A DNA stretch of 64,000 nt from Zygnema cylindricum (lineage: Eukaryota; Streptophyta; Zygnematophyceae; Zygnematales; Zygnemataceae), in assembly GCA_037447655.1 (NCBI GenBank), contig JBBHKE010002882.1:215612-279611 (forward strand), in the 5' to 3' direction. Shown piece after piece: positions 18,621 to 63,276 of the stretch. Every line of letters begins with the position of its first letter. The first letter of the stretch is position 1. The notes beneath the pieces are model-generated. The model ran no database searches and had not been told where the DNA came from. It was given only the letters and a program-made list of their open reading frames with translations. The translations under genes and the position numbers were made by a program.

Positions 18621-18635
18621 GGTTATGGGCCCACC
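18621..18635 (+). promoter_or_regulatory. Primer-binding site, initiator tRNA-Met anticodon arm
   Basis: GGTTATGGGCCCACC follows the LTR without a gap. All 15 bases are complementary to GGTGGGCCCATAACC of the plant initiator tRNA-Met. The Gag ATG (18625-18627) lies within it. Confidence 0.82.
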
Positions 18636-20490: not shown

Positions 20491-20493
20491 ACT

Positions 20494-20508
20494 AGAAAAT
20501 AAGGGGAG
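20494..20508 (+). other. Polypurine tract
   Basis: GAAAATAAGGGGAG precedes the 3' LTR, matching the tracts at 7502 and 22024. Confidence 0.8.
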
Positions 20509-21703: not shown

Positions 21704-21708
21704 CCTCT

Positions 21709-22023: not shown

Positions 22024-22036
22024 AAAATAAGGGGAG

Positions 22037-29720: not shown

Positions 29721-30060
29721 ATTATTCTACGTTCTCTCTCTTTTTTTTGTCCCCTTCTAAATATGCAAGTGTTTTTTTTTCGAGCTCTGTACGGAACTGA
29801 TTCTTTTTCCACTAAAAGTAGCAACAATACGACATAAATTTGAAAGGGTAGCTAAGATTAAATTAATAAAAAAAGTTTTTTTTTTATTTCAGTGATCCAC
29901 ACTAATTTCGGTAGGACTTCCCTTCCTCTCTCCTTTTGTTCTATTTATTAAGTGTTTTTCGTAAAGAATTGATATATATATATATTTTTAATTATTGAAA
30001 TCTGCTTTAACGAAAGAAGCTAAGAAGAAGAAAAAAAAAGGAGGAAAATATAAAAAATAT

Positions 30061-30470
30061 AAATTCTAGTTAACAAGAGGGAGAGAAAAAGGGGAATGGG
30101 GGGTGAACGGTGAGGGAAGAGAGAGGAAGATAATTTGGGAGAAGGGAGAGAGGGGAGAAAAATGGAAAATGAAAAAGCGCAAAATAAAGGCAGGAGAGAG
30201 ATAAAAATGGAGAAATTGGATAGACATTAGAGGGAGGTAGGGACAGAGGGAATGGGAGACGGGGAGAGGGAAAGGGACGTAGGAAGGGAGCGAGAGAAAG
30301 GGGGAGAGGGTGAGGGAGAGGAAGGGTGGGGGAGGTGGGAGGTAGGGCGGGAGAAAGAGATGAATAGAGTCGGGAGGCTAGGAGGGAGGAAGAGAGGGAA
30401 AGGACGGAGGTGGGAAGATAGGGAGAGGGGGAGAGGGGACAGGAGGACAGGGGAAGACATCAATGTTCTT
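30061..30470 (+). repeat. Polypurine tract upstream of the host gene
   Basis: About 400 bp consist almost wholly of G and A on the plus strand. It ends roughly 300 bp before the start codon of the modular protease gene. It is similar in kind to the long tracts in intron 3. ORFs on either strand are artefacts of composition. Confidence 0.85.
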
Positions 30471-30770
30471 GTTCCCTTGTCTTAAATTATATTTTGAGTT
30501 TCTTTTCACTATTTAATTTCTCGTTTTTCCGTTTACATTTATTCTGTTGGATTTTTTTTTTTTTTTTTAATGACATACATTCGCAAAAAGAGTGCAAGGT
30601 GGGAACTTTTCTTAATTCTGCGCCATTCCCGAAACTAATTATATATAAATTGACTAGCATTACTTTGAATATGGTTTTGAGGTTCTAAGGGGTCCACTAT
30701 TTTATGTGTGTTTGATTATTTTTGTCATTTCCTATTTTTATTTAGTTAGTTTATTTTTTTTAGGTGACAT

Positions 30771-30909
30771 ATGAAACGACAACTCATGATGGAATTCAAC
30801 AAGGGTGTCGTTTTCAATGGAAACAAGAGAAATCGAAATTCGCAAGGAATTTTGTTAATTTTCTCTCTTTTTTTGTTCGTTTCGAGTTTCAAGTCAATTC
30901 AAGGTGAAG
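30771..30909 (+). CDS. Exon 1: signal peptide
   Basis: Codons 1-46. A hydrophobic core (ILLIFSLFLFVSSF, residues 27-40) follows a long basic N-region, with a likely cleavage site near IQGEG. In-frame ATGs at codons 6 and 7 are alternative starts. Two donors fit in the same phase, GT at 30904 and GT at 30910; I prefer the second. An AG at 30762-30763 after a T-run could end a 5'UTR intron. Confidence 0.65.
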
Positions 30910-33900
30910 GTATGCCATACAAATATCCATTTTGTTTTTTTGGAAATTCTATGATGGTTGAAGGTTCTAGAGAGAAGTTATTGGAATGTAGCATTTAATT
31001 TCTCTTCGATGTAATTTTACTGCTTTGCTTAATGTACTATTTACTTTACTAGTTAAACACAATTTATTGTACTATGTAAATGTACTGTTTATCATCATGT
31101 ACTTTTTTAACTTACTGTTAAAGATGTTAAAGATTTTATTTGCAGTGCAAAATTCTAAACTATTTAATTTTATAAACCATTTTATGTACTATTCAATATA
31201 CTAAGTAGCGATAGCCATTCGTAAAACTACATTTTAATTCTAGACCTGCGACATATTGGGTTACTTCATTGTCTTGTTAGTCAAGTTACTAAATGGTCTC
31301 CAACTCCTGTTTTTCTCTCTTTCCCTTCTCTTTCTTTGCCCCTTTTCACTTTCTCTCAACCCCTTCTCCCCTATCTCTTTGTATCTCCCCTATTTGTTTC
31401 TTCATCTTTCTCTCTCTCTCCCTCTCGCTCTCTCTCTCTCTCTCCTTTTTTCCCTCTCTCTCTTTCTCTTGAGCGCTGCTATCAGGTTGTTGGTTGTCTC
31501 CCAATAGTACTTCCCCCCCAAAGTACTTCGTTTATAACTACGGCTTTGTTTCAAGTCTCACCACGAGCTGGTTTGTTAAGACGGCTATACAATGTTATTA
31601 CAGATGTGCTGGACACTATGGTTTCCTGATGTCAAAACAAGAAGAACGTTGGGTTTGTTATTGCTACTATAACCAAATTACATACGGAGATGAAAGGAGG
31701 GGACCAAATGAAGAAATATCATATGTTACTCTTTGTCCTAATGTGCCTTTTCCTCCCCCTCCTTTAGTCGCTCCTCCTCCTCCTTGTTGGGTTCAACCAA
31801 ATAGTACAAATCCATCCAACTTTTATCAATACCCATATTATTTTCGTTATGCTGATAATGGTAATTTGGGTTACAACATAAGTTCAACAGGTGTTCCTGG
31901 ATGTGTTCGATTATGTGAACGAGTTGGGTTTGGATTTTTTATTCAAGTATCACGTTATTCTTTAACGCCATATTGTTTTTGTTATGTGCGAAACGTAGAT
32001 TATAATTTTGCCGTGTTTCTTAATGCCCCAACAACGTCCTATATTAGCTCATGTCCTCCAATAGATTACGGCCCTTCTCCCTCTCAAAATTTTACTCCTT
32101 GTAGTATCCCAGCTAATAGTACAAATCCCTCAGGATTTTATTATTACAATTATGGCTTCAACACATACGAATATGTGTTGTTTGACCAGATTTCAACTCC
32201 CGTGGATTGCTTAAAATCATGCATGTTTCCTTTCGGGTTTATGACAAATGGATCAACTTGTTATTGCTTCACTAGAAAAGTTGACTATTCTAAAATATTT
32301 TATTCGCCATATGTTAAATCATATGTGCCGACTTGTCCCGTTATGTCCTCCCCTTCTCCCTTAACCTCTCCTCCTCCAAGCCCACCTCCCAATCCTCCTC
32401 CTAATCCGCCCCCCTCTTCTACCTTAAATCCTCCTCTAAGTCCTCCCTCTCTTCCTACCCCACCTCCTCCACTTAGCCCTCCCCCTCCTCTTAGCCCACG
32501 TCCTCCAAACCGTCAACCATCCCTCTCTCTATGGCCCCCTCCCCCAAAGAGCCCACCTTTATGGCCTCCTCCATGGGCACCTCCTCCTTCTCCCCCCCAA
32601 AGGCCTCCTCCTAAAAGGGCACCTCCTTCCCCCCCAACTCCGCCCCCGTCTAGCCCACCTCCTTTTCCTCCTCCTCCCAGCCCACCTCCCTCTCCTCCTC
32701 CCAAACCACCTCCTTCACCTCCTCGGAGCCCTCCTTCACCTCCTCGGAGCCCTCCTCCCTCTCCTCCTTATCCACCTCCTCCAATTCCACCTCCCCCACC
32801 ACCCAATCCTCCTCCAAACCCTCCTGTTGGGCCCCCTCCTCGTCCACCACCTATTCGGCCACCTCCAAAAGGTGATCACATTTACATCTTTTCTCAAATT
32901 CCTTCGACGTGTTGCTATTTTTTTTTCAGGGAGGGGGAGGGAAGAGCGTTAGGAGAGAAGCAAGGGAGGGGGAAACAAAGGAGAGGGGGAGGACATTTTC
33001 CACTAGAGTAAAAATGCATATGCAACGGTGTCTAAGCCACGGTGTTTGCTTTTTAATTTGATACGGGGAGAGGGAGAGGAAAAGAGGAGGGGAAGATAAA
33101 GATTGAAAGGGTGAAGGAAGGAGTTTCCCTTTTAAATGCCTCTTTTTTTTGTATATATTTTCTTCTTTTGAATTCCCTTGTGTTCTTTCCCCTTTTTTGT
33201 CTTCTATGGCATAATGTCTTCATTTTACTCTTACTATTGTCTCTTTTTGCTATCGTATTTAAAAAGTATGATTTTTCTCTTCTTTTGTGTTTGTATTTAC
33301 ATGTTGTTTGCAATCTTTATAAGGCTTTAGGTAATAATATTCAATAACATTTCCTTATTGTTTTTTGTTTCTACTTTTGACAATGTTTTTTCCTAACCGT
33401 TTTTTTATGTCCAGCCAATGTTTTCTTGTGATTTCATAATTTTTTTACTATTTACTTGCTAGTTGATTTCTTATATTTGAAAACGATTTTTTGTCAAGTG
33501 GCTTTATTGCTTTTTGTCCTCTTTTCTCCACTTTGTATTGTCTCAACTTCTCTTTAAATCTCTCCCATTCTACCTCCTACTTTTTACCCTTGTTTTTTTT
33601 CTACTTTCTTCTTTTCTTTATTTTTATCTCATATTGTCTTACTACCTTCTCTTTATATTTTTTTGTTGTCTTTCAATATTATTCTCTTTTTTAGCTTCTC
33701 TCTCTTGCCAATTATTTGTTCTCTTTTGTGCTTCATTCCTTCTCCTTCTCTTTATGCAATTCGGAGACCTCTATAGGCCCTCAGAGAAGGCAGCTCACAC
33801 GAAGCTCCTAGGATAGCCATGACCCCCTTTTGTTTGATCAAGACTTGACTGCCAACTTGACAGACAATAGGTTGAACTGACTTCACCTCAGTGAAGGCAA

Positions 33901-36900
33901 GACTCCCCTGAGTCTGCCACAAAAAGAATCAAGCAATTTGCTTCCTGAGTCTGTCACAAAAAGAATCAAGCAATTTGATCCCTGAGCAGTATATTATGAA
34001 TAGAATCAAGCAATTTGATCCCTGAGCAGTATATTATGAATGGTCAAAGATGACCCTCTTATACAGGAGCTCTTTGGGAGAGAGGCGGCTATCTAAGAAT
34101 TTGTCTAAGTCCTAAACCCCTCTCTAAACCCTCTACTACTAGATTACGACACCGATCAAATAACTGTAAAGTACAGAAAGATATTGGTGTTGGAGTTCTT
34201 TCTATACGGTCATCGTACGGCATGGCCAAGGAGGTGACGCCTGTCTCATCCGGACTTGTTCTGGTGCTCTCCGGAAATGCCGCAAACCAATGAGACAGCG
34301 CCACGTGTCACCTGGTGTGGCTATGACCAAAAATCGCCAAAGCGGCCATTCCGCGATGTCGGCTCACACCGTGGCCGTCCGATCCAAACCGGCATTTAAT
34401 ACTATCCATTGAAACAAATGTTCATAACATTTGTTTCGTGTGCTACCTTTGTTCGCACTATGTGTACAACTGAGTCTATGCTCTAAAGTCAGTTTGCTCA
34501 ATTAAATGGAATCCTTTAGAAATACATTTTTAAATAATTATCCAACCTTATATGTCTCAACACAAGTACTAGACTTACAGGATATGAACTAACGGCTATC
34601 GGCTACTCTAACGAACACAGTAGGTACCAAGTCCGTCAACCCTTTTTGGTATCTCTAACCTTAACTGCTCCCTGTCTCCTTGGACAACCTAGGCAGCCAT
34701 GGCTCTAATTCCCTCTCCAGTTGGACAACCTAGGCAGCCATGGCTCTAATTCCCTCTCCAGTCTTTAATGAATGCGACAAGTGTGGGGGCTTTAGAGAGG
34801 AGTAAGATTCAGGCTGTCTTTGCTTCTTCTTTGCCTTTTGTTTTACATATTTCCGACCTAGAAAATACCTAACAGAAACCTCTAATTTCTACACTTTACT
34901 CTCTCTTAGTACCATCATTTCTATATATATTTTTCATTGTTTTTCTGCTTCAATTCTTCTATTTTCTTCATCGTCTTTTTTTTGAATTTTCTTTCTATTT
35001 TTAATTCCCTGTATTCCTTTTTCATTCGAATAATTTTCACGTTCACATAGTCTTGACACTTTAACAAATGATTTATTTTGTATTTTGTGTTTCAAATTCT
35101 TCCATTTAAATTTCCGGAACTCATTTTTTTTTTGTTTTATTATTGTTCTTTTTTCGTTTTTCATCGCTATAGCCTCTCCTCCTTTTAAGCCGCCTCCTCC
35201 AATTCGTCCTCCTCCCCCACCTAAAAGCCCTCCTCCCTTGCCTCCCCCTTCTCCTCCTCCTTCCCCTCCCCCCCGACCGCCTCCTCCTCCACCAATAGTG
35301 TTTCCACCAAACTCCCCAGGTTCGATTTATGACCTCTTACTTTTAAAGGTTTACAAAAACGAGAGAATGAGAGGAGGGGGAGAGAGAGGGAGAGAGAGAG
35401 AGAGAAAGAAACAAAGAGAAGGAACAAAAAAATGGGGGGAAATAGACAAAAAGTAGGGAAAGGAGACGGAAAGAGGAGGAGAGAAAGAGGCGGAGAAGGG
35501 AGGTAGAGAGTGTGGGGCAAGGAGGGGGAAAAGAAAAGGAAAGAGGGAGGAAGGAGAGAAGGGAAGAAACATAGGAGGGAGGAAAAAATAAGGGACAAAA
35601 AGGGGGGAAAGAAGAGGGAAAAGAGGTGAGAGAGGTGGAAGAAAAGGGAGAGGGGGATGGCTAGAGTGTGATGGAGATCGAGGGAAAGGAGAGTAAGTGA
35701 GAGAGGAGAGAAAAAACTAGAATAAAGGAGAGGGAGAGGGGGGAGAAGGAGAGGGGGGAGAGGGAGAGCGGGAGGTTTGGGAGGTGAGTCGGAGGTGAGG
35801 AGGAGAGAGGGGAGTGAGAATTGGAGAGTGTGAGAGTGGATGGGAAAGAGGGAGGTAAGGGAGGAGAGGAGAAAAAAGGGATGCACAAGAGGGGAGTAGA
35901 GAGAGTGAGCAAGGAGAGAAAGACAAGCGGGAAGGAGGGGCAAAGAGAGGGAGGGTGATGGAGGGGAGAGAAAGGGAGAAAAGAGGGCGAGGTAGAAAGG
36001 AAGAGGGAAAGGTAAAGAGGTGGTGGTAGAGGTAAAGGGAGAGGGAGGAACTGGGGGGGAGAGTGAGAGATGTGGGAAGTAGGATAGAGGTGGGGACTGG
36101 TTGGGTAGATGGTATGGGGAGGGAGAGGGAAAAGGGAAAGGAGAGTGAGGGAAGAGGGTGCGAGAGTGGGAGTGGACGGGAGGAGGGAGGAGGAAAAGAG
36201 GAAGTTTTAAAGGGGAGAGAGGAAAAAATATGCGCAAAAAAGGGGGGAAGAGGGGCGAGAGTCGCCAGAGCGAGGGTTAAAAGAGGGGTAAGATAAAAAG
36301 CGAGAGGGAGGGCAAGAGGAGTGGGGAAGTTGAAAAAGGGGTGGGGAAGAGGGGAAGGTGCGAGAGAGGGGGAGGGAAGTGGAGGGTGGGAGACGGAGGG
36401 GAAGATGAAAAGATCCAAAATAAATAATTATTACACACATTGGAGGTACAAAATATAAGAAATGCAAACCAATTTCCCTTCACTCTTACACTTCTCACTC
36501 CTTTCTACTTCAACGATCCAATCAACTTAAACATATAGATTTTACATCTGGTCTAAAAAAAATTAAACGCGTGATGTAAGCACACGTAACTCTACTTTAA
36601 TTGTATGATAATCCAAACCTACGTACCGTAACTTGAGTCTTCGTGCCTCAAGGCCGAAAAGTACATCAGATCTATGGCGACTCTGAGACATCGCAAAAAC
36701 AAACTAGGAATCGAATCTTGCCCCGCTGACCAAAAAATGTCAAATTAGCGCTACCATACTGGACGGTGAACATACGAATCCCCCTCTTAGTGTCAAAATC
36801 GCTTAAACTTCACGTCAACCCACATTTGGGTCATCCTCTCTAATTGTGAAAAGAATCACCAGTTTGATTACAAGCCAATATTTAGTTTATCCACGCTTTG

Positions 36901-39900
36901 GCCACATGGGCATGTCGCTGTGTTTTTATATCGATGTCAATATTTACTTAATTAAAATGCGTATTGAGAGTCGAACTTTTTTAGACTAAGACGAAAGTTT
37001 TTGTCTCCCAATTACATTTCTAATATTTTTAACATTCCCCAATTTCCATAATATCGGAAATTGATGCTCCGTACATAGACTACTTTAAGTACCAGAATTT
37101 TGTTTAACATCTTAACTAAAATATGTCGCTTGATAATATCGATAAACGATCGAAACAACCTCTAAATGTTCGTCCTTATTCCAACACGTAACGCCAACAT
37201 ATATTGAGAAGATTGAATGGTCCTTAAATTTTGTCGCCTCAAATCCTCTACAAACATCTTTCACATTCTCCAATTTTTGTCCGAAATTAAAGTTTTTTAC
37301 ACATGCTACTTAGTACCATAATTTTGTTTAGTTGCTCAACCATAATTTGTCGCCTTAGAATACCAGTAGACGAAGAATGTTCGGCCTCACTCAAACACGC
37401 AACGTCAACATAAAATGAGAAGATTAAATTGTCTTCTCTATCTTCCTAATATAAACGCCTCAATCAATATTTGTACGTAAAATTCCAAATAAACGTAATG
37501 TGTGTATCTCTTTACACGATGATTTCAATGATTGTCACACCATTACGGGAGGTTATACTGCTATCACCTTGCGAACATTTCTTCTATTTTAAGTCTTGAA
37601 TTGTTTTGTCTTACTTCAACATTTTCTCGATTTCGTATAATCGACAACGAAATTCATATTTTGAACCATCTATCTCAATTTGAATTCTCAAATCGATATA
37701 GCGGTTCAAGTTGTCGTACCAGTCACAGAGCAAATCCTCGGAACTTCTTGCACCTCCTAATCTATCATGATCAAAGGGAATAGTAGAAAGGGATGCTTCA
37801 TCTTAAGCCCTTTTTAATCGAATGTTTATTTCTCACTAGGCACATTGGAAAGCATATCGAGAGAAAATACTTGTCTTGGCTGCTAGGAAAAGAGTATCGT
37901 TCTCCTTCCTTCACATTGCTCCAACTCTCTCACTTACTATTGTACTTAGGCTAAAGTAATAATCAGCCTCAATTGCTATTTTCTAAAAATTAGGGTTAAG
38001 GGCTAGCGAATGGGAAGGAGTTGTAGACATTTTTTTTGCCCCCCCTATGATTGCCGTTTACACTTGTCACGCCCGTCAATCCGAAGCACAACCTGCTCTA
38101 ATTCCCAATTGAAATGATCGATGAATAATCACCACACACGAGGGAAGCACAAACTATAAGATGGACAATTGGTCAAAAGGGAACTTTTATCAAAGTAGTC
38201 AAAGATAAAGACTCTTTCTTACAAATTATTGTACTTCACTCTTACACTCCTCACTCTTTTTTACACCGAGGAACCAATTAACCTAAAAGGATAGATTTTG
38301 TAACTAGTCTACTACAGCTAGATAATTGGCTATCTAATATGCTGTGCACGACTAGCAAAATAGGTAGGTGGTGTGTTTCAAACAAAGTACGTAGGAAGAC
38401 ACATGAAGAAAAGCAAAAAGATAGATGGTGCCACATGATTAAGGTTCATTAAAAGACACAATAAAAAGAAGGCGCGCTACAAATAGACAGACATGTTTTC
38501 TTTTTTGAAACAAAACTTAAAAGAATAATTCTTACACGCGAGTTGTACGCACACGTAATTCTAAAGCTACATCAATCGTACGGTACTGTAGACACATGTA
38601 AACATATCGTAAAACCATACTCGAAATCAAATTGTGCCACGCGAATCAAAACATTTCAAATTCGCTGACGGATGAGTCTCCACAGTGAACCTCACTAGAG
38701 AGGGGGAGGGTTGGTTAAAGGGTTGGTGGGAGCAAGAGAGGGGGGGAGGGAAACGGAGGAATGGAGTGAGAGTGAGGGAGAGGGAGGGGAAGAGGGTGTA
38801 CTAAGGAGGAAGCTTAAAAGAGGGAGCATGAATGAACAGAGGCATGAAAAGGCGAGGAGGACAGTGGCAAGGGAGAGGTAGTGGGGGAGGAAGGGAGAGA
38901 TGGTAAGAGAGAGGGACGAAAGGAGTACGAGAGGTCACTAAAAATAGGTGGGATAGAGGAACAGAGACATGAAGATAGGGTTAGAGAGAGATACAAGGGG
39001 AGGGGGAGAGAGATGAAAGATGCAAGGGAGAGGAAGAGGGAGAGATAAGAGAGAGCGAGTGAGAGTGGTGTAGAGGAAGAAAAAGAGGGAGAGGGGAAAA
39101 ATGGGTGGAAAGGCGAGAGAGGAGAAGAAAAGGGGAGAGAAGGGAAGGGAGAAGGATGGCGAGGTTTGGAGGTGGAAAGAGGGTGGGGAGGGAGTAAATG
39201 CAAGAGGGCCTACAAAAGGGGGGGGAGAGGGGTAGATGGGAAAATAGGGGAAGCAAAAGGGGGAAGAGAGGAGGAAAGAAAGGGGATGCGAGCGAAGGAG
39301 GGGAGGAGGGAGGAAGAAAACGTTGCTGAAAGAGAGGGAAAGTTGGAAGGAGGGGGTGAGAGAGAGAGAGAGGGAGGAATAGGGAGAAAGGCGGAATAGA
39401 AGGAAGAAATTAGGGATGTAGAGAGGGAAATAAAGAGGGATGTAGAGATAGAGATTGAGAGGGGCAAGGGAGAAGAGAGAGGGGAAGAGAGAGAAAGAAA
39501 GAGGGTAGGGGAGGGCGAGAGGGAAGGAGCGAGAGAGGGAAATAGGAGATAAGGGAAGAGTGATTGATTAAGAAATGAAGGTTGAAAGAAGGGATGAAGA
39601 TTGAGAAAGAGGGAGGGAGTAAGAGAATGACGGAAAGAGGGAGAGAGTAAAAGAGACAAACAAGAGTGGGATAGGGCGAGAGAGTGCGAGGGAAGAAAAG
39701 AGGAGAATAGGGAGGATTCAAGAAGAAGAGGGAGAGAATGGAAACGTAGAGGGGGGGGAGAGAGGGAGTGAGGGAGGCTGCAAGGGACAAATGGAGAGGG
39801 AGAGGACGAGAGAGGTTTGTACGGGGATAAGCGTAGAAATAAAAAAGAGGGGGGAAAAGAAAGGGAGAAGGGGAAGAGAGGGAGAGAGAGGTAGAGGGGG

Positions 39901-51900: not shown

Positions 51901-54900
51901 AGAAACGAACTTTGCAAGTGTTGTTCTAAGTGCAAATTACGGCCTTGGTCTTATGAACCCGTGTGGAAATGGAGTTTGTACCCCATTTGGGACCACCAAC
52001 AAATGTCAATGTACTCGCAATTTTGTGGCCGTAACCAACAATGATGGGAGCGAAGCTTGTGCTCCAGGTTTTAGTCCTTTTGTTATTTTTTTTGGGGGGG
52101 GGGGTGGGGTGGGGCCGGGGAATTGAAGGTTTTTTTTCTGGGGTTTTTGAGCGTTTCTTTTTTTGGGTTGTCTGAGACTTTTCTGGAATTTTTTTATTGT
52201 GCACCGGCTGTCCTATGCAGTCTGGACACTATGTTTTCTTTAAGCTTTTCATTTTTACAAGGCTATAAAAAAATTGTAAAAAAATAAAAAAATCAATGGT
52301 TCAAAGAATTTGTGCATTGTTATAGTCGTAGTATCTTACTTGAAGCATTTCTTTGGGTTTCTTTGGTTTAGAAAGCTGCCCTATAAAACGCTTAATTCCC
52401 CTGATGTTTGATAAATAACCTTTTAAAAGATAATCCCCCAAAAATCTTTCACTGTTTTTTGAATATATGTAAGGAAAGAAACACGATCCAACTTTTCTTG
52501 CAGCACACTTAGAAAAAAAATAGAATACCATGAGTTTTTTGGTGTTTGATATGAATTTAATTGTTGATGGTGTGAAACTTTGTAATAAAACTGAAAATAA
52601 ATTCTGTTTTTGTCAGTGTCTCCTTGCACATTTTATTCGAAGAATCCATGTGGGGTGGGAACTTGCCTCAACTCTATTGCTTTTCCGGGAACATACGATT
52701 GTATTTGTCCTCTGGGATATTCCTCGGACAGCAGCGATGGAAGTCTCACTTGCCTTCCAGGTTGTTTTCTCACCTTTTCTCCTCAAATATACTTCTCGTT
52801 AGTTCATGTTTGCTTGAACCCCACAAAATAAGAGGCAACCGAAAAAATAAGCATGCATTAAAGCATTAAACTTCCTTGAAAAAAGGGCAATAAATTCTTA
52901 CTTTTGAGAGCATTGATGTAAAAAGAAAAAGCTTAAATTATTGTATATTGTACCTAAAGCATTAAACTTCCTTGAAAAAAGGGCAATAAATTCTTACTTT
53001 TGAGAGCATTTGATGTAAAAAGAAAAAGCTTAAATTATTGTATATTGTACTTTTTTTCAGTGTGTGTGCGCTATAAAGTTTTACAGACGCCTGTGTATGT
53101 GAATTTTGAATTAGGTACACGGCCCATCGTTACCAGTGTTGAAGATTTTATTATTGTTAATGCGAAATGTGAAAAATAAAACCAATTAAGTGCAGGGAGA
53201 CGTAGCAGATTGTAGTCCACGTTCTTACATAGTGTTTTCGACACAATTTTAAGGTTTTTGCCCAAAAAAAGTCGCGACCGAATTAGTGTTATTTATCTCT
53301 AATAACAATGGGCGGTTTAGTTTTGTGTTGACGATTTGTTGGATTCACCTAGTTTAATGTAGGTCTTTTTGTTTTTTTTTTGTATGTGCGTTTACATTTT
53401 TCTGAGACTACTTCTCACAATATCGTCCTTGATGTGGATTCGTTTTTTTCACAGCAATGATAACCGAAGGCCCAGCTTTTTACGCTGTTCCACCGGGAGT
53501 AAACATAACATGTTCCATGGTTTACAAGGCATATGGCATTCCAAAGTCCATATTTTTACAGCAAAATGAGGTAAAGCTAAACGAAAACCCTGAAAAACAC
53601 TTACAGATCTGTTCGCAATTAAATATCATTTTCTAAGCAAATTGTTTGACTGTCTTTGTGGTTATTATCATCAAACAAGCATCGTCTTATTGATATAATT
53701 ATTGAAATTATTGTTACTACAGAATTTGAACTGCGACGGCCTTATTGCGCAATCTACACCTTTGAATGTTACAAACGCTCATAACTGCTCGCTTCCATAT
53801 GCAGTTAATGTGGTGAGAAAATACGCCCCCTTTGGTTTTTTAATGTTTTCTTCCGGATTTGACCTGTCACTTCTTGTTTTAAACCTGCCAATATTGACAT
53901 TTGTGTCCAAGCTTCATCCAAATTATTGCAATTATCATTGAAAATTTGCTGTATACTGTTTCAGGAGTGGGTTTCTGATTTATTTCAAGTTATTTTGGCA
54001 ATATTTTACTTTTATTTTTAAATTCCGTTAATGTTCTGTTTTTAGTTTTGAAAGAGTTTTTTCTTAGGATGATGGATCAAATCCTTTGCAAATACATTTT
54101 TACAGTCAAGCAAACTTTGCGGTAAGCTAAGGGAAGACAAACATAAATTTTGGCCTTTCAGGGCGACGACTGCTCTTCCATTGCCTTGATGTTCAACATC
54201 ACAAGGTTGGATGGCCCTGATTCACCAAATCCTGATCTGGACTGCTCCGAATTAATGCCTTATCAAATGGTAATCTCACGACAAACTTTTCGCTGGTTGA
54301 CAGTCCAGTTGTATGAATACAATCCAGCATTAAAATTTGGTGCATTTTTGGCCGTCTATCTATGGAAAGAGAGGTCAATCTTTTTTGATGTGGCATGTAA
54401 CACTGACACGGAAGATTAAAAATGTCTTTCAATTACACCATTGTTCGCCCATAAAATTAAATACACATATATTTATTATTACGTACCAGAATTCAACACG
54501 CATTAAAAGAAAATTGTTGACGTCGACATTGCGGACATCAAACAAAACAAAAAGCGAAGATCACCGTCAATTTTTTTTTTTAGCGCATCACGTGTGGTTC
54601 AGTTTCAATGGCGCAAATTTTTTCAAAGAACCTTGTTTTGTTTTGCCGAGTAGTACACCGACCATCGTTATTAACGTTTCTTAGGTGTTAAAGCGAAATT
54701 AGAATATATAATACTAATTTAGTGCAAAGAGACGTGGAAGGTCTTACTACACTCCCTTCAAAGGTGTTAACTCTATTCGATGATTTTAGCCCAAAAAATC
54801 GCAACAGAATTAGTGTTATTATTCTAATAACAAAGCACGGTGTAATAGATAGATTTTTCTTAAATACGGGTGAATTGTTTATGTTAGAGCATACATTCTT

Positions 54901-57900
54901 GCAGGTTCATTAAGATTTTTGCTTTGGTACAGCAAAATGGACGGGTCTCCATTTCAATGAATAGGCCCTATATTTCATTACAAACAAATAGGAATCTAAT
55001 TCGCTGTCCTGTTTAACTTCCAATCTGTTTGCAATGGATTACTGCTTGAACTATGGGAAGTACGTTACTTTATGTTGGGCTTAGTCCTTTGTTAGAAGCT
55101 TTAGTCTTCGTTCTTTATTTAATAACGTCATCTAGCATTCTAGTTTACGTTATTTAGTTGCTTCCTCATTCTAGTTTACGTTATTTGACAGTTTTTCTTT
55201 TCTTGATACTTTCGCTTAATTTAAGCATCCAGCTTAGCATCTGGTGATAGATCCGATCTTAAATCTGTCCACCGCGTAATTAAAGATCTTCTCTCTTGCC
55301 CTTTTCGGCATTATGTGTCAGATGACCTTTCAGGTCACCTAGGGTCCCTAGACTTTGAGAAAGTCACCTGGTGACATTCTCTGCTCTACTTAAGTTCTCT
55401 ATTCTTTGTACTTTACACCAACTTTTATTAAAACTACTTTGTTTTGATTTCTCTTTTGTCTCTTTCAAATTTTCTTTCCTTCCTACATTATCTGCTGCCA
55501 TGTCATCGACTGCAATACGTTATACTACGCTAAGTATGATATGATAAAATCCCGCAGAGTTGAGGATTTTGCATATCAAAGGCTTGAACCTGGGATCTTT
55601 CACTAAAGTTGTGAATGTGCTAACCATTGCACCACCAGCTCGATGTTTGAGCCTAGCAGGGCTTTGCCCATTTATTTTGGGCAGCTTCGAGTGTCGGCGG
55701 ACCATATTACGCCCCTATATGGAAAGGCAACATCACGCCAATTTAACACCTCCCCTTATGAGGAGATCAATCAATACATCCGCAATCCCATTGGCTCTGA
55801 TACTATGTCAAAATTACATAGAATCTGGGATTGAGCGTGTCCAATACTAGGGAAAATTGAGCTGATCAGGGCTCGAACCTAGGACCTTCCACTTAAGCTA
55901 TGAATGCGCTAACCATTGTGACACCAGCTCAATGTTGAGCCTGGGGGTCCCTTTCCCATTTATTTTGGTCGGCTTCGAGTGTAAGCTAGCACATTACACC
56001 CCGATATTGAACGACAACATCGTGCCAATTCATCACGCTATTCCTGGTTTTTCGCGGCACACTGATTGTAAGGTCTTCGCTTTCTCAGGGGCCAAAAGTG
56101 GTTATTTCAAGATCGTTCTTAATTGTTGTGAAAATTTTGATAGATTCTGTTTGATGTCTACAACCATAACTTGGCGAACTGTTAGAAAAGCCATATAAAT
56201 GACCACTTTTAGACCCTATTAACCCTAGTGGAGTGGTGGTCTAAGATTCGAGTAGTTTTTATTTGAAACTCTACTAAGGTGCGCGTATGATGGTAAACCT
56301 TTATGCAAAGGAAATTGGCGGCAGTTGTCGTTTTCACACTAAATTTCCATAAAAAAAAGATAATTTTGCCATTTATTATTTTCAAATTGTGAATGTATAA
56401 AATGGAACCTAAAAAAAATTGACATGATATGAAAAAATAATCATCCATATAGAATCAATCGCGTGGTAACTATAATGCAATAAGGAGATTTCGTACGGAT
56501 TGTGTAGTCACGTCTTGAAAAAAAATTCGACGCCTTTGATGATGTCATAATACGTCAATAGTCTGGTTGACGTCGTTACAAGATTTTCATACCGTAATTT
56601 TTGTTATGTTTTCCCATCGAAGTTTGGTGTGAATACCGCAATCAAGCGTATAAGCTAGGACTAAATATAGAATGTAAGGGCATGGTGGGAAATAGAGAAA
56701 AAACAGAGAAAAAGATCACAGGGAAGAGATGATGAATCATGGCAAGTAACAATTTGGAAGCAAAAAAAAAGACAAAAGTCAACTAAGAGAACACGAAAGA
56801 GAAGCAAAGAAGAGAATAATGTAGAAAAAATAAAGGTTTAAATATTCACGAATCTAACTCTTAATTTAGAGTGGATTGGTACACTACGTCCACAAAAAAA
56901 GAGAAACCTCAAAGGTAAAACTAGTGAAGATCGATGACTTCAAAAGGGAGTATTAGAGAATATTTCGTTTTGGAATCGACAATGAAGAAATCAACTAATT
57001 GACAAAAAATACGGTGGAACTACACTTCGTCGTACGAAGACTTTTGAAAAGGCGTCAAAATGTGAACTTTATTGCAAAAACTTGCGATGGGGAGACCATC
57101 AGGGTACAAAAGGGTTAAAACAAAGAAAAATAAAACACGTAAATACTACAAAAGTCACAAAAGTCGTCTACAACCGTCACAAGTTGTACCCACGTCTACG
57201 GTCATCACATTTATTTGTAACGATTTTATTTTTACGCATTGGAACGCCTTGCAAATTAGTATGGAGAATCTTCACTAAAATACAAAGTACCAGTTCAAAT
57301 TATTGGTTACATGGGCACACCCCATTACAAGGTGTAAACGGTATCAGCAAGAGTATCGGTACACAAAAAGTATGTTTCCATGAACCGACAGAAACCAGAC
57401 GCAAAACAAAGTGCGGAATTGAAAATAAATTACGGACAAATATACAAACAGAAACATACATTTTAACTTCAACAATGTAAGCGTAAAGGCTCCGATCCGG
57501 TAGGGGCAAGAAGTGGTCATTTGATGGCGGTGTTTGTAACTGGGCAAATCCTAACCTTCCAAACCAGAATCGTCTAAATCCTACAGCCATAGACTGCCCG
57601 ATCATCGAAAATTGCCTTAAAATGACCACTTTTGGGCCCTTTCGGCCCTTGATGGAGCGGAGATCTATTAGTATAGTTGACAACACTTCATAAGCAAAAT
57701 TTTGTGTTTGCTTAGGGTTTTAACAATTCGGCAAAACTAATCAGGTTTTGGGATGTGGTTCTTCAGGTGTGCATTGAACGTGGCGAATTAATTTACAACG
57801 GTCCGTGTACAAAGCCGTACACCGCGCAACTGGATGACACATGTAACTCCATCATCGCAAACGAGTTGGATGGTGATGCCTGGCTGTTCTACTCACTAAA

Positions 57901-58704
57901 TCCGGGAATACGTTGCGACCAACTTGCCTTGTCTTTTAGGAGCCAATTTAATCTCGGGCAACAGGTAAAGTGTTATTAGGATTAATAACACTAGCAAGGC
58001 ACTAATTCTATGCTGGTTTTTTATTTGGGATTTGAAAACAATATCGGCAATAATAAGATTAATTATTTCATTAATAACAAAGCGATCATTGACAGTCGTC
58101 TCATTTGTACCAAATTAAGTTTAGTGCTTTTGTCCCAAAGTAAATTTAGTGCTTTGGTGCCCAAATTAAATTTTGTAGCACTAAATAGTCTTGGCAGTAA
58201 TAACTTCTCAGCTCTTATAACTGTTCAGGTTGTACCTTCTCACCACGTTTATTTTCTTGATGATAATACAGTGCGAAATTGTATATATAACCTATATGAC
58301 GTTAAAGCGATATCGACGATGTCATTTTCTCATTTCAAACAAAATCCAAATGGAACGAACATTTTCTTTGAATGTCATTTCACGCAATCATAAGATATTC
58401 ATTATTCACGAATTTCAAAATATGGCTTGCCATATCAAATTTGTAGATTCTCATTTGTAATAAGTTATTTTCTTGGTGTTTGTGTATTGCACAGGTCTGT
58501 CTTGAAGCCGCAGATCTAGATATGAGGCAAGAAGGTTGTGCCGGAAAGCCTTTGCTTGTGATAAAAAGTTATTCGTGTGCATCTTTGGCCAAGTATTTTA
58601 AGAAAATATCATTTAAAAAGCTAAACAAAGTTGCGTGCACTAAAAAATTCTTAGCAGCAAAATTGGCAGCTGGAAAGTCGATTTGTATTCCTAGAAAGTC
58701 GTAG
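30771..58704 (+). CDS. Multi-domain secreted cysteine protease with WSC-like, LRR, EGF and LysM modules (22 exons)
   Basis: Predicted exons: 30771-30909, 31486-32871, 35173-35319, 40973-41096, 41489-41560, 42374-42445, 42685-42756, 47729-47800, 48026-48097, 48558-48919, 49274-49456, 50046-50350, 50723-50866, 51403-51622, 51885-52067, 52617-52760, 53455-53570, 53723-53812, 54068-54121, 54162-54269, 57767-57964, 58495-58704. All introns are GT-AG, every phase matches, and the sum is 4473 nt. Layout by residue: signal peptide 1-45, three six-Cys modules 48-331, proline-rich 333-557, LRR cap and six LRRs 558-745, EGF 785-838, papain domain about 870-1115, EGF 1125-1233, LysM-like 1240-1490. It probably acts outside the cell, with the wall as substrate or anchor. 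The 5' end is the least certain part: exon 1 is linked only by its signal peptide and phase, and a 5'UTR intron may end at 30763. The model is inferred, without transcript data. Confidence 0.85.
31316..31470 (+). repeat. CT-rich tract at the end of intron 1
   Basis: A TCTC-dominated run directly precedes the exon 2 acceptor. It may serve as an extended polypyrimidine tract. Confidence 0.8.
31486..32871 (+). CDS. Exon 2: three six-cysteine WSC/PAN-like modules and proline-rich stalk
   Basis: Residues 47-509. Three tandem modules begin near residues 48, 147 and 252. Each has a PNSTNP-like motif and the cysteine order C, CxxxC, CxC, C, with aromatic-rich F/Y spacing and Gly-Phe before the CxC pair. 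The CxxxC plus CxC core resembles the WSC carbohydrate-binding fold, but overall similarity is weak. From about residue 333 the chain is Ser-Pro(2-4) repeats as in extensins and algal pherophorins, a likely site of hydroxylation and arabinosylation. The acceptor may be 31474 instead of 31486; both keep phase. Reading through the donor meets a stop at about 33009. Confidence 0.82.
33755..34893 (-). mobile_element. Solo copia LTR in intron 2
   Basis: On the minus strand it runs TGTAGAAATT to GAATTGCA, about 1139 bp, and matches the LTRs at 3978-8568 and 12386-23092 at a distance. A perfect CTTTA duplication flanks it (33750-33754 and 34894-34898). No internal sequence remains. It contains a local 50-bp duplication near 33990-34040 and another near 34690-34760. 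The old insertion left the splice sites of intron 2 untouched. Confidence 0.85.
35173..35319 (+). CDS. Exon 3: proline-rich stalk, second part
   Basis: Residues 509-558. It continues the Pro-rich region with KSPPPLPPPSPPPSPPP-type repeats and ends FPPNSPG. The acceptor follows TCGCTATAG, and the donor is CCCCAG/GTTCG. Together with exon 2 the stalk covers about 225 residues. Confidence 0.8.
35360..36410 (+). repeat. Polypurine tract in intron 3, left block
   Basis: Just over 1 kb of nearly pure G/A with GGGAGA as the recurring motif. Long ORFs on the minus strand are Ser/Pro/Leu-rich composition artefacts. Confidence 0.9.
36411..38695. mobile_element. Probable insertion with diverged direct terminal repeats
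   Basis: Normal-composition DNA splits the polypurine tract. Its left part (about 36415-36790) and right part (about 38130-38695) are diverged direct repeats. They share TTCACTCTTACAC, TATAGATTTT, CGCACACGTAA and a minus-strand tRNA-like box. This is the layout of an old LTR element about 2.3 kb long, with nothing coding between the repeats. I could not find a target duplication. Confidence 0.5.
38696..40815 (+). repeat. Polypurine tract in intron 3, right block
   Basis: About 2.1 kb of G/A-only or nearly G/A-only sequence, ending in a (GA)n run at about 40790-40815. With the left block the original tract would have been about 3.2 kb. Minus-strand ORFs of up to 296 codons are artefacts. Confidence 0.9.
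40973..41096 (+). CDS. Exon 4: LRR N-terminal cap
   Basis: Residues 558-599. The pattern GILLEFQKGF...SWRGVTVNEFGNVTKL is the plant LRRNT_2 cap (usually ...C.W.GV.C), here without its cysteines. The donor AAGTT/GTACGC is in phase 2 and joins exon 5 to give TKLELSRL. Without splicing the frame stops at about 41152. Confidence 0.82.
41345..41462 (+). repeat. CT-rich tract in intron 4
   Basis: A TCTC-rich run shortly before the exon 5 acceptor, resembling that in intron 1. Confidence 0.75.
41489..41560 (+). CDS. Exon 5: LRR unit
   Basis: 72 nt, phase 2 on both sides. It encodes LKIKGIISPAIGRLTSLEVL, a plant-type LRR with the IxG(x)I(x)P core. Confidence 0.85.
42374..42445 (+). CDS. Exon 6: LRR unit
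   Basis: 72 nt in the same phase. It reads DLSTNLLSGTLPASLGNL followed by TKLKTM, a near-consensus plant LRR. Confidence 0.9.
42685..42756 (+). CDS. Exon 7: LRR unit
   Basis: 72 nt in the same phase. It reads LSSNTIGGELPKELVML and onward, with an intact LRR core. The intron after it carries an LTR retrotransposon. Confidence 0.9.
43044..44115 (-). repeat. LTR (3' LTR in element orientation)
   Basis: 1072 bp. Short ORFs at its right end recur identically in the other LTR only because the LTRs are copies. Confidence 0.93.
44185..44360 (-). repeat. GCTGCGTTGC-rich tandem repeat
   Basis: About three imperfect copies of a unit near 60-65 bp (CACTGCTTC...GCTGCGTTGC) in the untranslated 3' part of the element, between gag and the polypurine tract. 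The rest of 44116-44981 shows no coding sequence. Confidence 0.65.
44982..46508 (-). CDS. Gag-like protein, about 508 residues
   Basis: The start is the ATG in the primer site (MGPHPWLPIIDGSKYHYW). The N-terminal half is copia-type Gag (DUF4219/UBN2-like: LWKCLECMYAK, LMRSLPKEYKSALDQL). The zinc knuckle is CFYCNDVGHIFRVY, where the last cysteine is tyrosine. The C-terminal half is acidic and contains an internal duplication (DSVIINVSCDRLV and DSVVVTLSFDRVV). It ends with a TAG; no Pol follows. The frame is fully open, unlike the decayed copia copies. An upstream in-frame ATG at 46538 lies in the LTR and is less likely. Confidence 0.85.
   Translation of the reverse strand: MGPHPWLPIIDGSKYHYWKGALESYFEMMELMDVVDGTLAETSNGWKRKNHECLRVIKNSLIEDFVMSYISFKKAYELWKCLECMYAKTSLYHWLSSVTKIVEHKYVGGSMEKHCIDLQVLFAENDLAGGNFTDAQQAILLMRSLPKEYKSALDQLTLIDKRDWSLTVARRVVLDEEAIRKVLSSKRNIKESKSQFQKIKKNSEFRDRPKNCFYCNDVGHIFRVYPSYKSACVTRIFRDGWDSNLVRPSTRRESCAFVSERQDSTNDKRHTPCVNEFIYLPTFYVVRNEVEKEVTKKDSVIINVSCDRLVSDTNLQKKGVIEIGVEGIKGQPEVEVEGTENSVVIEDSVEKEESEKDSVVVTLSFDRVVCVNDLRGDEMLEERRVREVNLKVATEYSLDMEKTELKTKLRVREEDDERENGEFTQDGELTSEVENNVASKVNEFSEGSRDVDKKMRLRKEGHKIGEIWILIRNIRKRKKQLNERGVKIKLFRMHTLTGSGRSMENNKT
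46498..46512 (-). promoter_or_regulatory. Primer-binding site, initiator tRNA-Met anticodon arm
   Basis: On the minus strand GGTTATGGGCCCACA touches the LTR end ACAACA. It is the same 15-mer as at 13417 although the LTRs are unrelated in sequence. Confidence 0.82.
46513..47584 (-). repeat. LTR (5' LTR in element orientation)
   Basis: 1072 bp, closely matching 43044-44115, with TG...CA ends. Confidence 0.93.
47729..47800 (+). CDS. Exon 8: LRR unit
   Basis: 72 nt, phase 2. LDGNQFGGRIPSFLGDM is a clear LRR. It joins exon 7 across an intron of 4972 bp. Confidence 0.9.
48026..48097 (+). CDS. Exon 9: LRR unit
   Basis: 72 nt, phase 2. LSWNNFIGAIPVELSNL matches the LRR consensus. Confidence 0.9.
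48558..48919 (+). CDS. Exon 10: last LRR and EGF-like module 1
   Basis: Residues 719-840. It starts with LNLNNNRLIGDLNLNFG, the last LRR, then SVEHNYLSGEP, which resembles an LRR end. A Cys-rich segment follows, closing with an EGF-like pattern CGGHGYCTGQEGKCVCDD. The donor is TTCG/GTACGT. Running on without splicing gives a stop near 49024. Confidence 0.87.
49274..49456 (+). CDS. Exon 11: linker and start of the papain domain
   Basis: Residues 840-901. It contains GAVTAVKDQKNC, the start of a C1A peptidase with the oxyanion glutamine (Gln897). The 30 or so residues before it are a linker (GRGTGLEQRET...). No ERFNIN/GNFD inhibitor propeptide is present between the EGF module and the protease. 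Confidence 0.85.
50046..50350 (+). CDS. Exon 12: papain domain with catalytic cysteine
   Basis: Residues 901-1002. STCWVFAPISAIES carries the nucleophile Cys903 (usual motif GSCWAFS). Further conserved parts are AEKQIYDCS and CDVGGRPLETLEYV, equivalent to LSEQ.LVDC and GC.GG in cathepsins. The donor GAA/GTGGAT is weak but keeps phase 0; without it the frame ends at a TGA about 30 nt on. Confidence 0.83.
50723..50866 (+). CDS. Exon 13: papain domain, central part
   Basis: Residues 1003-1050, phase 0. LLLAVQQQPAIASIEASGENFNNY corresponds to the cathepsin LxxAVAxQPVSVAIDA...FxxY stretch. Confidence 0.87.
50998..51186. repeat. Decayed MITE in intron 13
   Basis: It begins CACTGCTCGTCGCTATTAGTG and ends CAGCGATGGGCAGTG before TA, a worn copy of the TA-flanked family. 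Confidence 0.4.
51403..51622 (+). CDS. Exon 14: papain domain with catalytic His and Asn
   Basis: Residues 1051-1124. LDHAVLVVGYD holds the catalytic His1065, and IIRNSWGPNWGDNGY holds Asn1085. DGICGIN closes the domain. If intron 14 were retained, the frame would end at 51642 after LSFIS, giving a protease without its EGF and LysM tail. Confidence 0.9.
51885..52067 (+). CDS. Exon 15: EGF-like module 2
   Basis: Residues 1124-1185. The pattern CRETNF...NPCGNGVCTPFGTTNKCQCTRNF is EGF-like. The acceptor at 51885 (not 51887) keeps the frame and gives EGDPC. Confidence 0.85.
52617..52760 (+). CDS. Exon 16: EGF-like module 3
   Basis: Residues 1185-1233, phase 1 at both ends like exon 15. NPCGVGTCLNS...GTYDCICPLGYS is a good EGF pattern. 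Matched phases allow module duplication or skipping. Confidence 0.87.
52860..53050 (+). repeat. Tandem duplication in intron 16
   Basis: A unit of about 95 bp, beginning AAAGCATTAAACTTCC, is present twice in a row (52860-52953 and 52956-53050) with essentially one indel. It is a recent duplication. Confidence 0.9.
53118..53317. mobile_element. MITE in intron 16
   Basis: TA-flanked element of about 200 bp. The left end is CACGGCCCATCGTTACCAGTG and the right end is CTAATAACAATGGGCGGT. It resembles 54656-54842 throughout. Confidence 0.65.
53455..53570 (+). CDS. Exon 17: LysM-like module 1, first half
   Basis: Residues 1233-1271. AFYAVPPGVNITCSMVYKAYG fits the LysM start Y.V..GD..., with Cys as in plant and fungal LysM. 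It is completed by exon 18. Confidence 0.75.
53723..53812 (+). CDS. Exon 18: LysM-like module 1, second half
   Basis: Residues 1272-1301, phase 0. NLNCDGLIAQ is the N-x-x-C-x-x-L ending of a LysM. A Cys-containing linker follows. Confidence 0.75.
54068..54121 (+). CDS. Exon 19: 54-nt mini-exon of LysM-like module 2
   Basis: Residues 1302-1319, phase 0, DDGSNPLQIHFYSQANFA. It is too short to stand out alone, but the acceptor TTTTCTTAG and the donor GCG/GTAAGC are good. It supplies the first strand of the LysM that continues in exon 20. Confidence 0.72.
54162..54269 (+). CDS. Exon 20: LysM-like module 2
   Basis: Residues 1320-1355. GDDCSSIALMFN followed by NPDLDCSELMPYQ is a good LysM match, ending where VCI follows in exon 21. 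Intron 19 is only 40 nt. Confidence 0.83.
54656..54842. mobile_element. MITE in intron 20
   Basis: TA-flanked (54654-54655 and 54843-54844), 187 bp. The left end is CACCGACCATCGTTATTAACG and the right end is CTAATAACAAAGCACGGTG. It has no coding capacity. Confidence 0.72.
55571..55770 (-). repeat. Repeat unit with tRNA-like segment, copy 1
   Basis: On the minus strand it contains a box-A-like TGGTGGTGCAATGGTTAGCAC and a box-B-like GGTTCAAGCC about 40 nt apart. The flanking 120 bp resemble the copy at 55857-56050. The conserved flank lies 5' of the tRNA-like part, which is unlike a normal SINE. Confidence 0.55.
55857..56050 (-). repeat. Repeat unit with tRNA-like segment, copy 2
   Basis: On the minus strand it has TGGTGTCACAATGGTTAGCGC and GGTTCGAGCCC, closer to the pol III consensus than copy 1. 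It lies in tandem with copy 1 in intron 20. Confidence 0.6.
56088..56215. mobile_element. Short TIR element, copy 1
   Basis: GGGGCCAAAAGTGGTTATTT at the left is inverted at the right (AAATGACCACTTTTAGACCC). It is about 128 bp long and non-coding. Confidence 0.6.
57503..57639. mobile_element. Short TIR element, copy 2
   Basis: It has the same ends as the copy at 56088 (GGGGCAAGAAGTGGTCATTT and AAATGACCACTTTTGGGCCC), about 137 bp, in intron 20. The DNA between the two copies shows no gene. Confidence 0.65.
57767..57964 (+). CDS. Exon 21: LysM-like module 3
   Basis: Residues 1356-1421, phase 0. VCIERG closes module 2. TAQLDDTCNSIIANE and FYSLNPGIRCDQL then make the best LysM in the protein, and a GQQ ending joins VCL in exon 22. 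Confidence 0.87.
58495..58704 (+). CDS. Exon 22: LysM-like module 4 and stop
   Basis: Residues 1422-1490. It begins VCLEA and contains VIKSYSCASLAKYF...LNKVAC, then AGKSICIPRKS and a TAG. The C-I-P ending is typical of terminal LysM modules. No membrane anchor or GPI signal follows, so the protein is probably released or held through its stalk and LysM parts. Confidence 0.85.
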   Translation, partial: VCLEAADLDMRQEGCAGKPLLVIKSYSCASLAKYFKKISFKKLNKVACTKKFLAAKLAAGKSICIPRKS

Positions 58705-59850: not shown

Positions 59851-60529
59851 GTTCAATACTGGGATGCGGATTCCCCACACTCGATACATAACTTTTGGAC
59901 GGGGATATGGTTTGAGGTTTAGGATATTATTGCTCGTTGGACTTTGTACCGCGGTAAAGGAATCACAAAAGCAAAAGTTCTCGAATTATGCCAAACTGTA
60001 TCCTGTAAGCCTCATTTCTCATCCTTGTAAAGTTGAAACGACTTTACTATGTTTATGGTATTCAAACCTTCCACTAATTGTGTCTTTTCACACCGCCTGT
60101 ATTAATTATTAAAAATGAACTGTTTTAGGCGCATGGTCTTGTAACCGTGTGATAAGTAGAGATCAACCAGTGACAAATTGTATTTTTACAATGAGGTAAC
60201 AAATTATGGTTTCAGATTCTTTCAAATTTGAAACTTACTAAATCAAAGGTGAGAAACATGATCTGAGCTTGTTGTCTGCCGACATGAAACTGGTCACAAG
60301 TGCTTGTTCCACAATATCCGAGAAGATGAAAGAGGCTCCACGCAACTGTCGACTTCAATAATCTCTCCACTCACGGAGGCCATATCGTACGGCCCTACTC
60401 CTGTGTTAGTCAGTCTCCCGTGTTAGTCAGTCAGACCGAATGAAATGGACCACAACTGACGCGTCAGTCGTCAGTTTTATTTGTATTTTTTGAATGAACA
60501 GTAGTATGAAACATGCACATCAATTACTA
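59851..60529. other. Unassigned intergenic DNA
   Basis: No recognisable gene or repeat apart from a small direct repeat (GTGTTAGTCAGTCTCC) near 60402-60430. Confidence 0.4.
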
Positions 60530-63000: not shown

Positions 63001-63276
63001 ATTCTAAAAATTTTTTAGCTCTATAACTACTTTTAGCTAGAAAGGGTAATTTGTGATTCTTTCCTAAAGCACATCCATCACGGACAAAATGTCCCTTGTT
63101 AGAACCAATAAAAGCAGGTCCATGTGTCCTTTTTCAGAACCGGAGAGTCTCAGACAAAATGTCCCTTGTTAGAACAGTAAAAACATGCCCATGTGTTAAT
63201 ACGTCGACCTGCCTAATTCTGATTTCTATTCTGCCTAATTCTGATTTCTATTCTGAAACTGAGTGTTAAATACTTG

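Follow-up and report, generated by a model that had tools for sequence, protein, structure and literature searches.

A putative secreted papain-type protease with LRR, EGF and LysM modules in Zygnema cylindricum, from a large family of streptophyte algae

Introduction

Enzymes of the papain/cathepsin L group usually carry an I29 inhibitor propeptide, a feature that is not strictly defining of C1A proteases. A pheromone- or wound-induced cysteine protease of the chlorophyte Volvox combines C1A with LysM repeats and is not known to have LRR or EGF modules; our literature searches did not turn up a record of it. LRR-extensins (LRX) are secreted proteins in which an extensin part follows a plant LRR domain, and they are not known to contain a protease or LysM.

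In general, C1A enzymes are synthesized with a prosequence that is 38-250 residues long (PMC2474614). The union of C1A and LysM in one chain is already in print as a combination not retained in vascular plants, and the same source mentions, for algae and other plants outside the angiosperms, lectin domains combined with EGF domains or peptidases; in the part of that source accessible to us, neither LRR nor the order LRR-EGF-C1A-EGF-LysM is named among the C1A-LysM combinations (PMC6362431, which we take to be Van Holle and Van Damme, 2019). The SERA proteins of Plasmodium, as far as the consulted parts of the reports go, have a papain fold with both Cys-type and Ser-type members (PMC4671257, PMC5500368, PMC2878606). 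Proteins built by class 1-1 exon shuffling are held to be practically restricted to animals, according to the portion seen of a review (PMC8001218).

Here we describe a gene in a window of 64,000 nucleotides from the Zygnema cylindricum assembly (352.8 Mb; contig C2161:215612-279611). Its product shares the catalytic domain and residues of chymopapain, ananain and actinidin but differs from papain-like plant C1A enzymes in its long flanking modules and in having no recognizable I29 propeptide. Like LRX, it is predicted to be secreted and has a plant LRR together with a Hyp-rich stalk, but its Pro-rich part precedes the LRR, which sets it apart from LRX. Its family resembles SERA in containing Cys-type and Ser-type members; the modules and host of SERA are unrelated, however, and the window copy is Cys-type rather than a SERA-like Ser protein. 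The order LRR-EGF-C1A-EGF-LysM was not found named in the literature that we searched by titles and the starts of abstracts, and the family seemingly has not yet been described there. The first-pass annotation, which knew of no described protein with this order, agrees with that search, but the order already stands unannotated in Closterium, Mesotaenium and EukProt proteomes.

Gene Model and Module Order

Reading of the window from 29 to 64 kb and fitting of splice sites gave a spliced gene at 30771-58704 on the plus strand, with 21 exons, GT-AG introns throughout and an open frame of 1450 aa. The same start, end and open spliced frame had been proposed in the first-pass annotation, whose count of 22 exons is corrected here to 21. 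The exons are as follows.

30771-30909, plus strand: exon 1, start codon and signal peptide, ends in phase 1; the sole signal-peptide-like first exon found in 30000-31500
31486-32871, plus strand: exon 2, phase 1-1; carries the three 6-Cys orphan repeats (aa 48-334) and the larger part of the Pro-rich stalk
35173-35319, plus strand: exon 3, phase 1-1; remainder of the Pro-rich stalk
40973-41096, plus strand: exon 4, LRR N-cap, LRRNT-like by eye, Cys lost; the alignment of P0003 starts from aa 576
41489-41560, plus strand: exon 5, LRR, 72 nt, phase 2-2
42374-42445, plus strand: exon 6, LRR, 72 nt, phase 2-2
42685-42756, plus strand: exon 7, LRR, 72 nt, phase 2-2
47729-47800, plus strand: exon 8, LRR, 72 nt, phase 2-2
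48026-48097, plus strand: exon 9, LRR, 72 nt, phase 2-2
48558-48919, plus strand: exon 10, last LRR, C-cap and EGF1, phase 2-1
49274-49456, plus strand: exon 11, phase 1-1; pre-catalytic segment with conserved FRYASSGY, then the beginning of C1A with oxyanion Gln897 (49444-49446)
50046-50284, plus strand: exon 12, C1A, nucleophile Cys903 (50051-50053)
50723-50866, plus strand: exon 13, C1A
51403-51622, plus strand: exon 14, C1A, His1043 (51445-51447) and Asn1063 (51505-51507)
51885-52067, plus strand: exon 15, EGF2, phase 1-1
52617-52760, plus strand: exon 16, EGF3, phase 1-1
53455-53570, plus strand: exon 17, LysM-like repeat 1
53723-53812, plus strand: exon 18, LysM-like repeats 1-2
54162-54269, plus strand: exon 19, LysM-like repeat 2
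57767-57964, plus strand: exon 20, LysM-like repeat 3
58495-58704, plus strand: exon 21, LysM-like repeat 4 and stop codon

A donor for exon 4 at 41100 and an acceptor for exon 11 at 49263 were tried and rejected, as both broke the frame, which 41096 and 49274 restore. The choice of acceptor 49274 is independently checked by paralogues from this genome, whose exon 11 starts at nearly the same residue.

The predicted chain consists of a signal peptide (aa 1-46), three 6-Cys repeats, a Pro-rich stalk, LRRs, EGF1, C1A, EGF2, EGF3 and four LysM-like repeats, so that one of the three EGF-like modules lies 5' of the protease and two lie after it. LRR, EGF, papain-type protease and LysM had been proposed in that order, and Pfam recovers all four in that order: LRR_8 (PF13855) at 3.8e-15, EGF_2 (PF07974) at 4.9e-5, Peptidase_C1 (PF00112) at 8.6e-39 and LysM (PF01476) at 2.1e-7. 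The LRR part, an N-cap without its cysteines and about six or seven LRRs, is of the plant type, with 24-residue repeats and five 72-nt phase-2 exons; an NCBIfam scan matched bacterial LRR proteins, via the LRRs alone. The LysM repeats are divergent (2.4e-8 in a dedicated scan), and four are recognized by eye and by paralogue matches, while Pfam sees three stretches; this tail is putatively a binder of GlcNAc-containing glycan. Hydrophobicity over 19 residues peaks in the signal peptide (1.74), and the next stretch elsewhere, inside C1A, reaches 1.37; the protein is therefore expected to be soluble or wall-bound and not membrane-spanning.

The N-Terminal 6-Cys Module

The N-terminus had been called WSC-like in the first-pass annotation, and this identity was not borne out. 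None of the three repeats matched PF01822 or any other Pfam family at E<=10, and the nine paralogous modules gave only PRIMA1 and Fip1 noise in Pfam. Against the PDB, the sole match of a 6-Cys repeat was a GAPDH at E 0.1, and a search of the protein database with the N-terminal module returned none of 570 candidates at E<=1. Repeats 2 and 3 are 26 and 29% identical to repeat 1, and the six cysteines are the only conserved feature. A fold predicted for one repeat (AF2) had a pLDDT of 44.7, too poor to use. The stalk is extreme in composition, with 138 Pro within a 240-aa stretch that reaches slightly past it.

In its own genome, the module has 17 further matches on eight contigs, two of them weak and perhaps due to chance. 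At one locus (G000:C270:427651-433425, minus strand), four 6-Cys matches in tandem (L036-L038 and L040; three full, one partial) precede a single C1A gene: the equivalent of exon 11, the rest of C1A and both EGFs follow the tandem 6-Cys/Pro-rich exons on the same strand. The exon 11 equivalent starts about 1.3 kb past the end of a 6-Cys match with no LRR match between, and one 6-Cys exon has a phase-1 acceptor and a phase-1 donor, like exon 2 of the window. At this locus, the 6-Cys/stalk exon occupies the place held by LRR and EGF1 at other loci. On contig C1164, the order is the same and on one strand, with the 6-Cys module at 22.5 kb, exon 11 at 30.7 kb, and then C1A, EGFs and LysM; this locus and that on C270 look like recent copies of each other and count as one case.

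Other copies have no protease exon detected nearby. On contigs C1232, C1444 and C612, no family exon was found in about 4.9 kb downstream of the 6-Cys module, and these three contigs and C1355 gave no match to the catalytic-Cys exon, for which all 129 candidates were scored. The module therefore probably also lives without this protease elsewhere in the genome. As a separate observation, a Pro-rich open frame of the SPPP type, very long at 1564 aa, comes after the 6-Cys exon on C1232 (L031, G000:C1232:92186-93031).

The Papain Domain and its Active Site

The C1A domain is nearly complete (PF00112 at 8.6e-39, profile positions 2-213 of 220), its active site is intact (Q897, C903, H1043 and N1063), and its closest PDB relatives are chymopapain and ananain, which support reading the window protein as a potentially active papain-type protease. 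The I29 propeptide (PF08246) had no match in the four scanned segments of the protein, from which the Pro-rich stretch was left out. In the Pfam columns of both homologue searches, read by hand, I29 was found in none of the 86 family relatives versus 12 of the 20 other matches, and a Pfam scan of 22 aligned members likewise found none. Where the propeptide would be, there is instead a FRYASxG[FY] segment, coded in the window by its own phase 1-1 exon (exon 11). This motif fits 37 of 87 family rows, window included, versus none of the 20 others; the limited share of the family is partly explained by the many partial gene models.

The nucleophile varies among the relatives. In the 85 family rows with a C1A match (P0047, without one, was dropped), the column holds Cys in 55, Ser in 21, both in one, Cys/Val in one and Leu in one, while six rows have no residue aligned there. 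His and Asn are kept in 85/85, and the 20 other C1A proteins all have Cys. The Ser nucleophile occurs in Closterium relatives, whose gene models are often partial, so that single Ser or Cys rows may be wrong. On a tree of 34 rows chosen by hand out of 107, 11 of them with Ser and with the Cys column masked, at least four nucleophile changes are needed. Because about a quarter of the relatives carry Ser (21/85, plus the mixed row), proteolysis cannot be essential to the whole family. The window copy is Cys-type, and all 10 readable catalytic exons from other loci of its genome keep Cys.

A predicted model of the relative P0003, made from 22 sequences, had a pLDDT of 78.9 and a pTM of 0.59. Its LRR resembles the FLS2 and MIK2 ectodomains, and its protease resembles bromelain and actinidin (target TM 0.92-0.93). 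Since the relative placement of domains is unreliable at this pTM, nothing was drawn from the model on covering of the active site.

One Gene or Two

P0003 is a EukProt transcript ORF that bears the label "complete"; it covers aa 576-1447 in a single alignment with 37% identity, and P0001 likewise aligns in one stretch from aa 583. When homologues were aligned to the residues from 558 on, each of the 17 junctions from 4/5 to 20/21 was crossed without a gap by at least one of seven homologues, junctions 10/11, 13/14 and 14/15 by one only. The genome itself shows the same linkage. Among the 150 listed LRR-cap/EGF1 exon matches, at least 54 are followed on the same strand by a C1A exon at a distance of up to 6 kb, and none has one within 6 kb upstream or on the opposite strand; with a limit of 20 kb, one listed match has a C1A match downstream on the opposite strand. 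These counts are lower bounds, as the lists are capped, with 150 of 403 candidates scored for LRR-cap/EGF1 and 150 of 303 for C1A, the latter mixed with exons of ordinary papains. We also read 10 further loci as 20 stretches. Six of them (C1505, C1662, C1414, C39, C2271 and C966) carry EGF1, four C1A exons, EGF2, EGF3 and LysM in order on one strand. The core is in order at C1991 with no LRR-cap/EGF1 match, at C1052 (L011/L012) except for two unmatched C1A exons, and at C1380 with no LysM match on the gene strand and one on the opposite strand; the tenth locus, a neighbour copy at C2161:318519, looks decayed. On the collinearity with P0003, the bridged junctions and the LRR-EGF/C1A linkage, a chance joining was rejected, and exons 4-21 are one gene.

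The attachment of exons 1-3 is less secure, and the same exons might instead be a neighbouring gene for a wall protein with 6-Cys repeats and a Pro-rich stalk, with a separate LRR-EGF-C1A-EGF-LysM gene starting at exon 4 and its first exon missed. This is what P0001 and P0003 would suggest, since both open with a signal-peptide-like stretch directly before the LRRs, and with the whole protein as query, none of 106 homologues reached junctions 1/2 and 2/3 or the 6-Cys part. Once low-complexity filtering was switched off, junction 3/4 was crossed by two alignments, which begin at aa 530 and 538 within the Pro tail. The two-gene reading keeps some weight because the 6-Cys module probably also occurs without the protease, as on the contigs described above, but neither a strict scan nor three looser ones found another signal-peptide exon ending in phase 1 in 35320-40970, a stretch length in which the loosest scan finds about two candidates elsewhere. 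The loci on C270 and C1164 also speak against it, since there, in what counts as one case, a 6-Cys module precedes C1A exons on the same strand, on C270 at short distance and with phase-1 sites. We regard two genes as unlikely, and exons 1-3 are probably joined to exons 4-21. The single chain of the first-pass annotation is thus upheld for exons 4-21 by collinear transcript ORFs and paralogous loci and is less firm for exons 1-3; similarly, its concern that transcripts might end between modules is answered from LRR to LysM by P0001 and P0003, and not for exons 1-3.

Intron Phases and Exon Shuffling

Introns at module boundaries are in phase 1 in 7 of 7 cases versus 1 of 13 inside modules (hypergeometric P 1.0e-4, or 7e-4 when the stalk intron is not counted as a boundary), with the caveat that introns were sorted into boundary and internal after their phases had been seen. 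The predicted gene, with phase-1 boundary introns and symmetric module exons, shows the pattern typical of class 1-1 exon shuffling. Part of it could stem from a bias toward phase 1 close to signal-peptide sites, judging from the part seen of the review (PMC8001218). Exons 11-17 have splice sites of matching phase in as many as 11 paralogous loci. For EGF2, same-phase acceptors were found in 11/11 and donors in 10/10, for EGF3 both in 11/11, and for exon 11 acceptors in 8/9 and donors in 9/9; four other exons had same-phase sites as well. Of 140 sites looked for, 139 were located, and 133 of these lay at the expected base, in a search of up to 24 nt on either side run without a chance control.

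Distribution of the Family

Two homologue searches, the second of which scored the 7997 candidates sharing most words, gave 106 proteins. We classed 86 as family, namely those named Closterium, Mesen1 (Mesotaenium) or TRINITY (EukProt transcripts) and P0052, and set aside 20 as ordinary or unrelated C1A proteins. The family, as sampled in this way, belongs chiefly to the closest algal relatives of land plants, and the two homologue lists contain no land-plant protein with LRR, EGF or LysM companion modules. C1A and LysM in one chain, which the first-pass annotation had suggested looking for in algal proteomes, occur in Closterium, Mesotaenium and EukProt relatives. P0001 and P0003 (EukProt), P0005 (Mesotaenium Mesen1), and P0002 and P0016 (Closterium) share the core order LRR-EGF-C1A-EGF-LysM with the window. 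These unannotated proteins are 37-42% identical to query residues 840-1450 over 70-99% of them and have no I29, but do not align to the 6-Cys N-terminus, and P0001, P0003 and P0005 have more LRRs by eye. The window protein groups in the tree with P0052, from an unnamed contig and 48% identical (100/99), and those two group with P0001 and P0003 (100/99).

Among 22 aligned members, Pfam finds C1 in 22, LysM in 15, LRR in 10, EGF in 9 and legume lectin in 7. Closterium also has a branch (P0006-P0015, P0053 and others) in which a legume lectin (PF00139) is joined to the C1A core, with or without LRRs. P0024, P0026, P0032 and P0047 are Closterium models with domains of the PF02878 type, presumably phosphoglucomutase, beside C1A and/or LysM, and are probably fused gene models. 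In the genome of Z. cylindricum, exon 11 has 98 matches including the window (all 108 candidates scored), 75 of them at E<=1e-6, and the predicted size of the family there is therefore several dozen to about a hundred.

Proposed Role

Taking these features together, we propose, with a probability of about 0.6, that the window holds one gene of a large streptophyte-algal family and that its product is a C1A cysteine protease that is secreted, does not span a membrane and is retained in the extracellular matrix. The LysM tail would bind GlcNAc-containing glycan and concentrate the enzyme there, and the LRR may capture or sense a protein partner. LRR/EGF1 and the FRYASSGY segment could replace the missing propeptide in folding and active-site gating, and the 6-Cys repeats and Pro-rich stalk might lodge the protein in the wall. 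The net role would most likely be proteolysis that is directed by recognition and takes place at a glycan surface, serving either defence or the remodelling of the alga's own wall. A secreted, wall-resident protease with glycan-binding modules, which might be targeted to chitin or peptidoglycan and act on microbes, symbionts or the alga's own wall, had been proposed in the first-pass annotation; secretion and potential activity are supported by the sequence and by conservation of the core.

The glycan surface need not be microbial, and it is quite possible, if not our preferred view, that the protein acts on the alga's own wall or in gamete release. Large families associated with the wall are compatible with either target, and a Chlamydomonas M11 peptidase is involved in cell wall degradation, according to the part of the source consulted (PMC6362431); on the other hand, LysM, LRR and lectin modules and the large copy number fit recognition of variable partners. 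Proteolysis itself could be secondary in a decoy or receptor-like binding protein, with the C1A fold as a third recognition module. The frequent Ser nucleophile beside invariant His and Asn and its repeated changes on the tree point that way, and Plasmodium SERA5, a papain-fold protein with Ser, is described as having a non-enzymatic role in the accessible parts of two reports (PMC4671257, PMC5500368). Such a role is improbable here, however, as the window copy keeps Q, C, H and N and the catalytic exons from other loci of the same genome keep Cys.

Beyond the recognition-directed protease that we favour, we raise tentatively, as a broader idea that may well not hold, that a large repertoire of extracellular proteases gated by recognition arose in streptophyte algae: LRR, legume-lectin or 6-Cys/Hyp cassettes would have been swapped before an I29-less papain domain by class 1-1 shuffling, with a LysM docking tail and repeated conversion to Ser-type. 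If so, these proteins could form a soluble system for recognition in immunity or mating, one that was lost in land plants. In our judgement, extracellular recognition is little known in the sister algae of land plants, to which the family would add a multigene sensor-protease fusion. It offers a C1A enzyme whose folding and control have to work in the absence of the usual propeptide, and a natural set of Cys-to-Ser exchanges that arose separately in a single scaffold. It also offers, from the plant lineage, an instance of phase-1 module shuffling that is relevant to the view of this mechanism as an animal speciality.

Mobile Elements and Sequence Surroundings

Intron 7 contains an LTR element that is not part of the coding gene.

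43044-47584, minus strand: LTR element in intron 7, with LTRs at 43044-44115 and 46513-47584, 97.0% identical over 1072 bp

It is flanked by a 5-bp duplication, TCAAA (43039-43043 and 47585-47589, by eye), and carries a gag-like minus-strand ORF at 44982-46541 with a zinc-knuckle-like motif by eye. Intron 3 has long purine-rich tracts at 35350-36430 and 38680-40820 (GC skew 0.58 and AT skew 0.43 at 38001-40000), and pyrimidine-rich tracts precede the 6-Cys exon both in the window and on C1232. Such purine- or pyrimidine-rich tracts might favour recombination of the 6-Cys cassette exon. Upstream of the gene, nested Copia-like elements were seen by eye at 3978-23093, with integrase/reverse-transcriptase-like ORFs at 5166-7501 and 13391-17561, a gag-like 631-aa ORF at 18595-20490, and repeats at 3978-4849 and 7515-8389 that are 98.4% identical. 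Copia-like remnants, also by eye, lie downstream of the protease gene at 60527-63140 on the minus strand.
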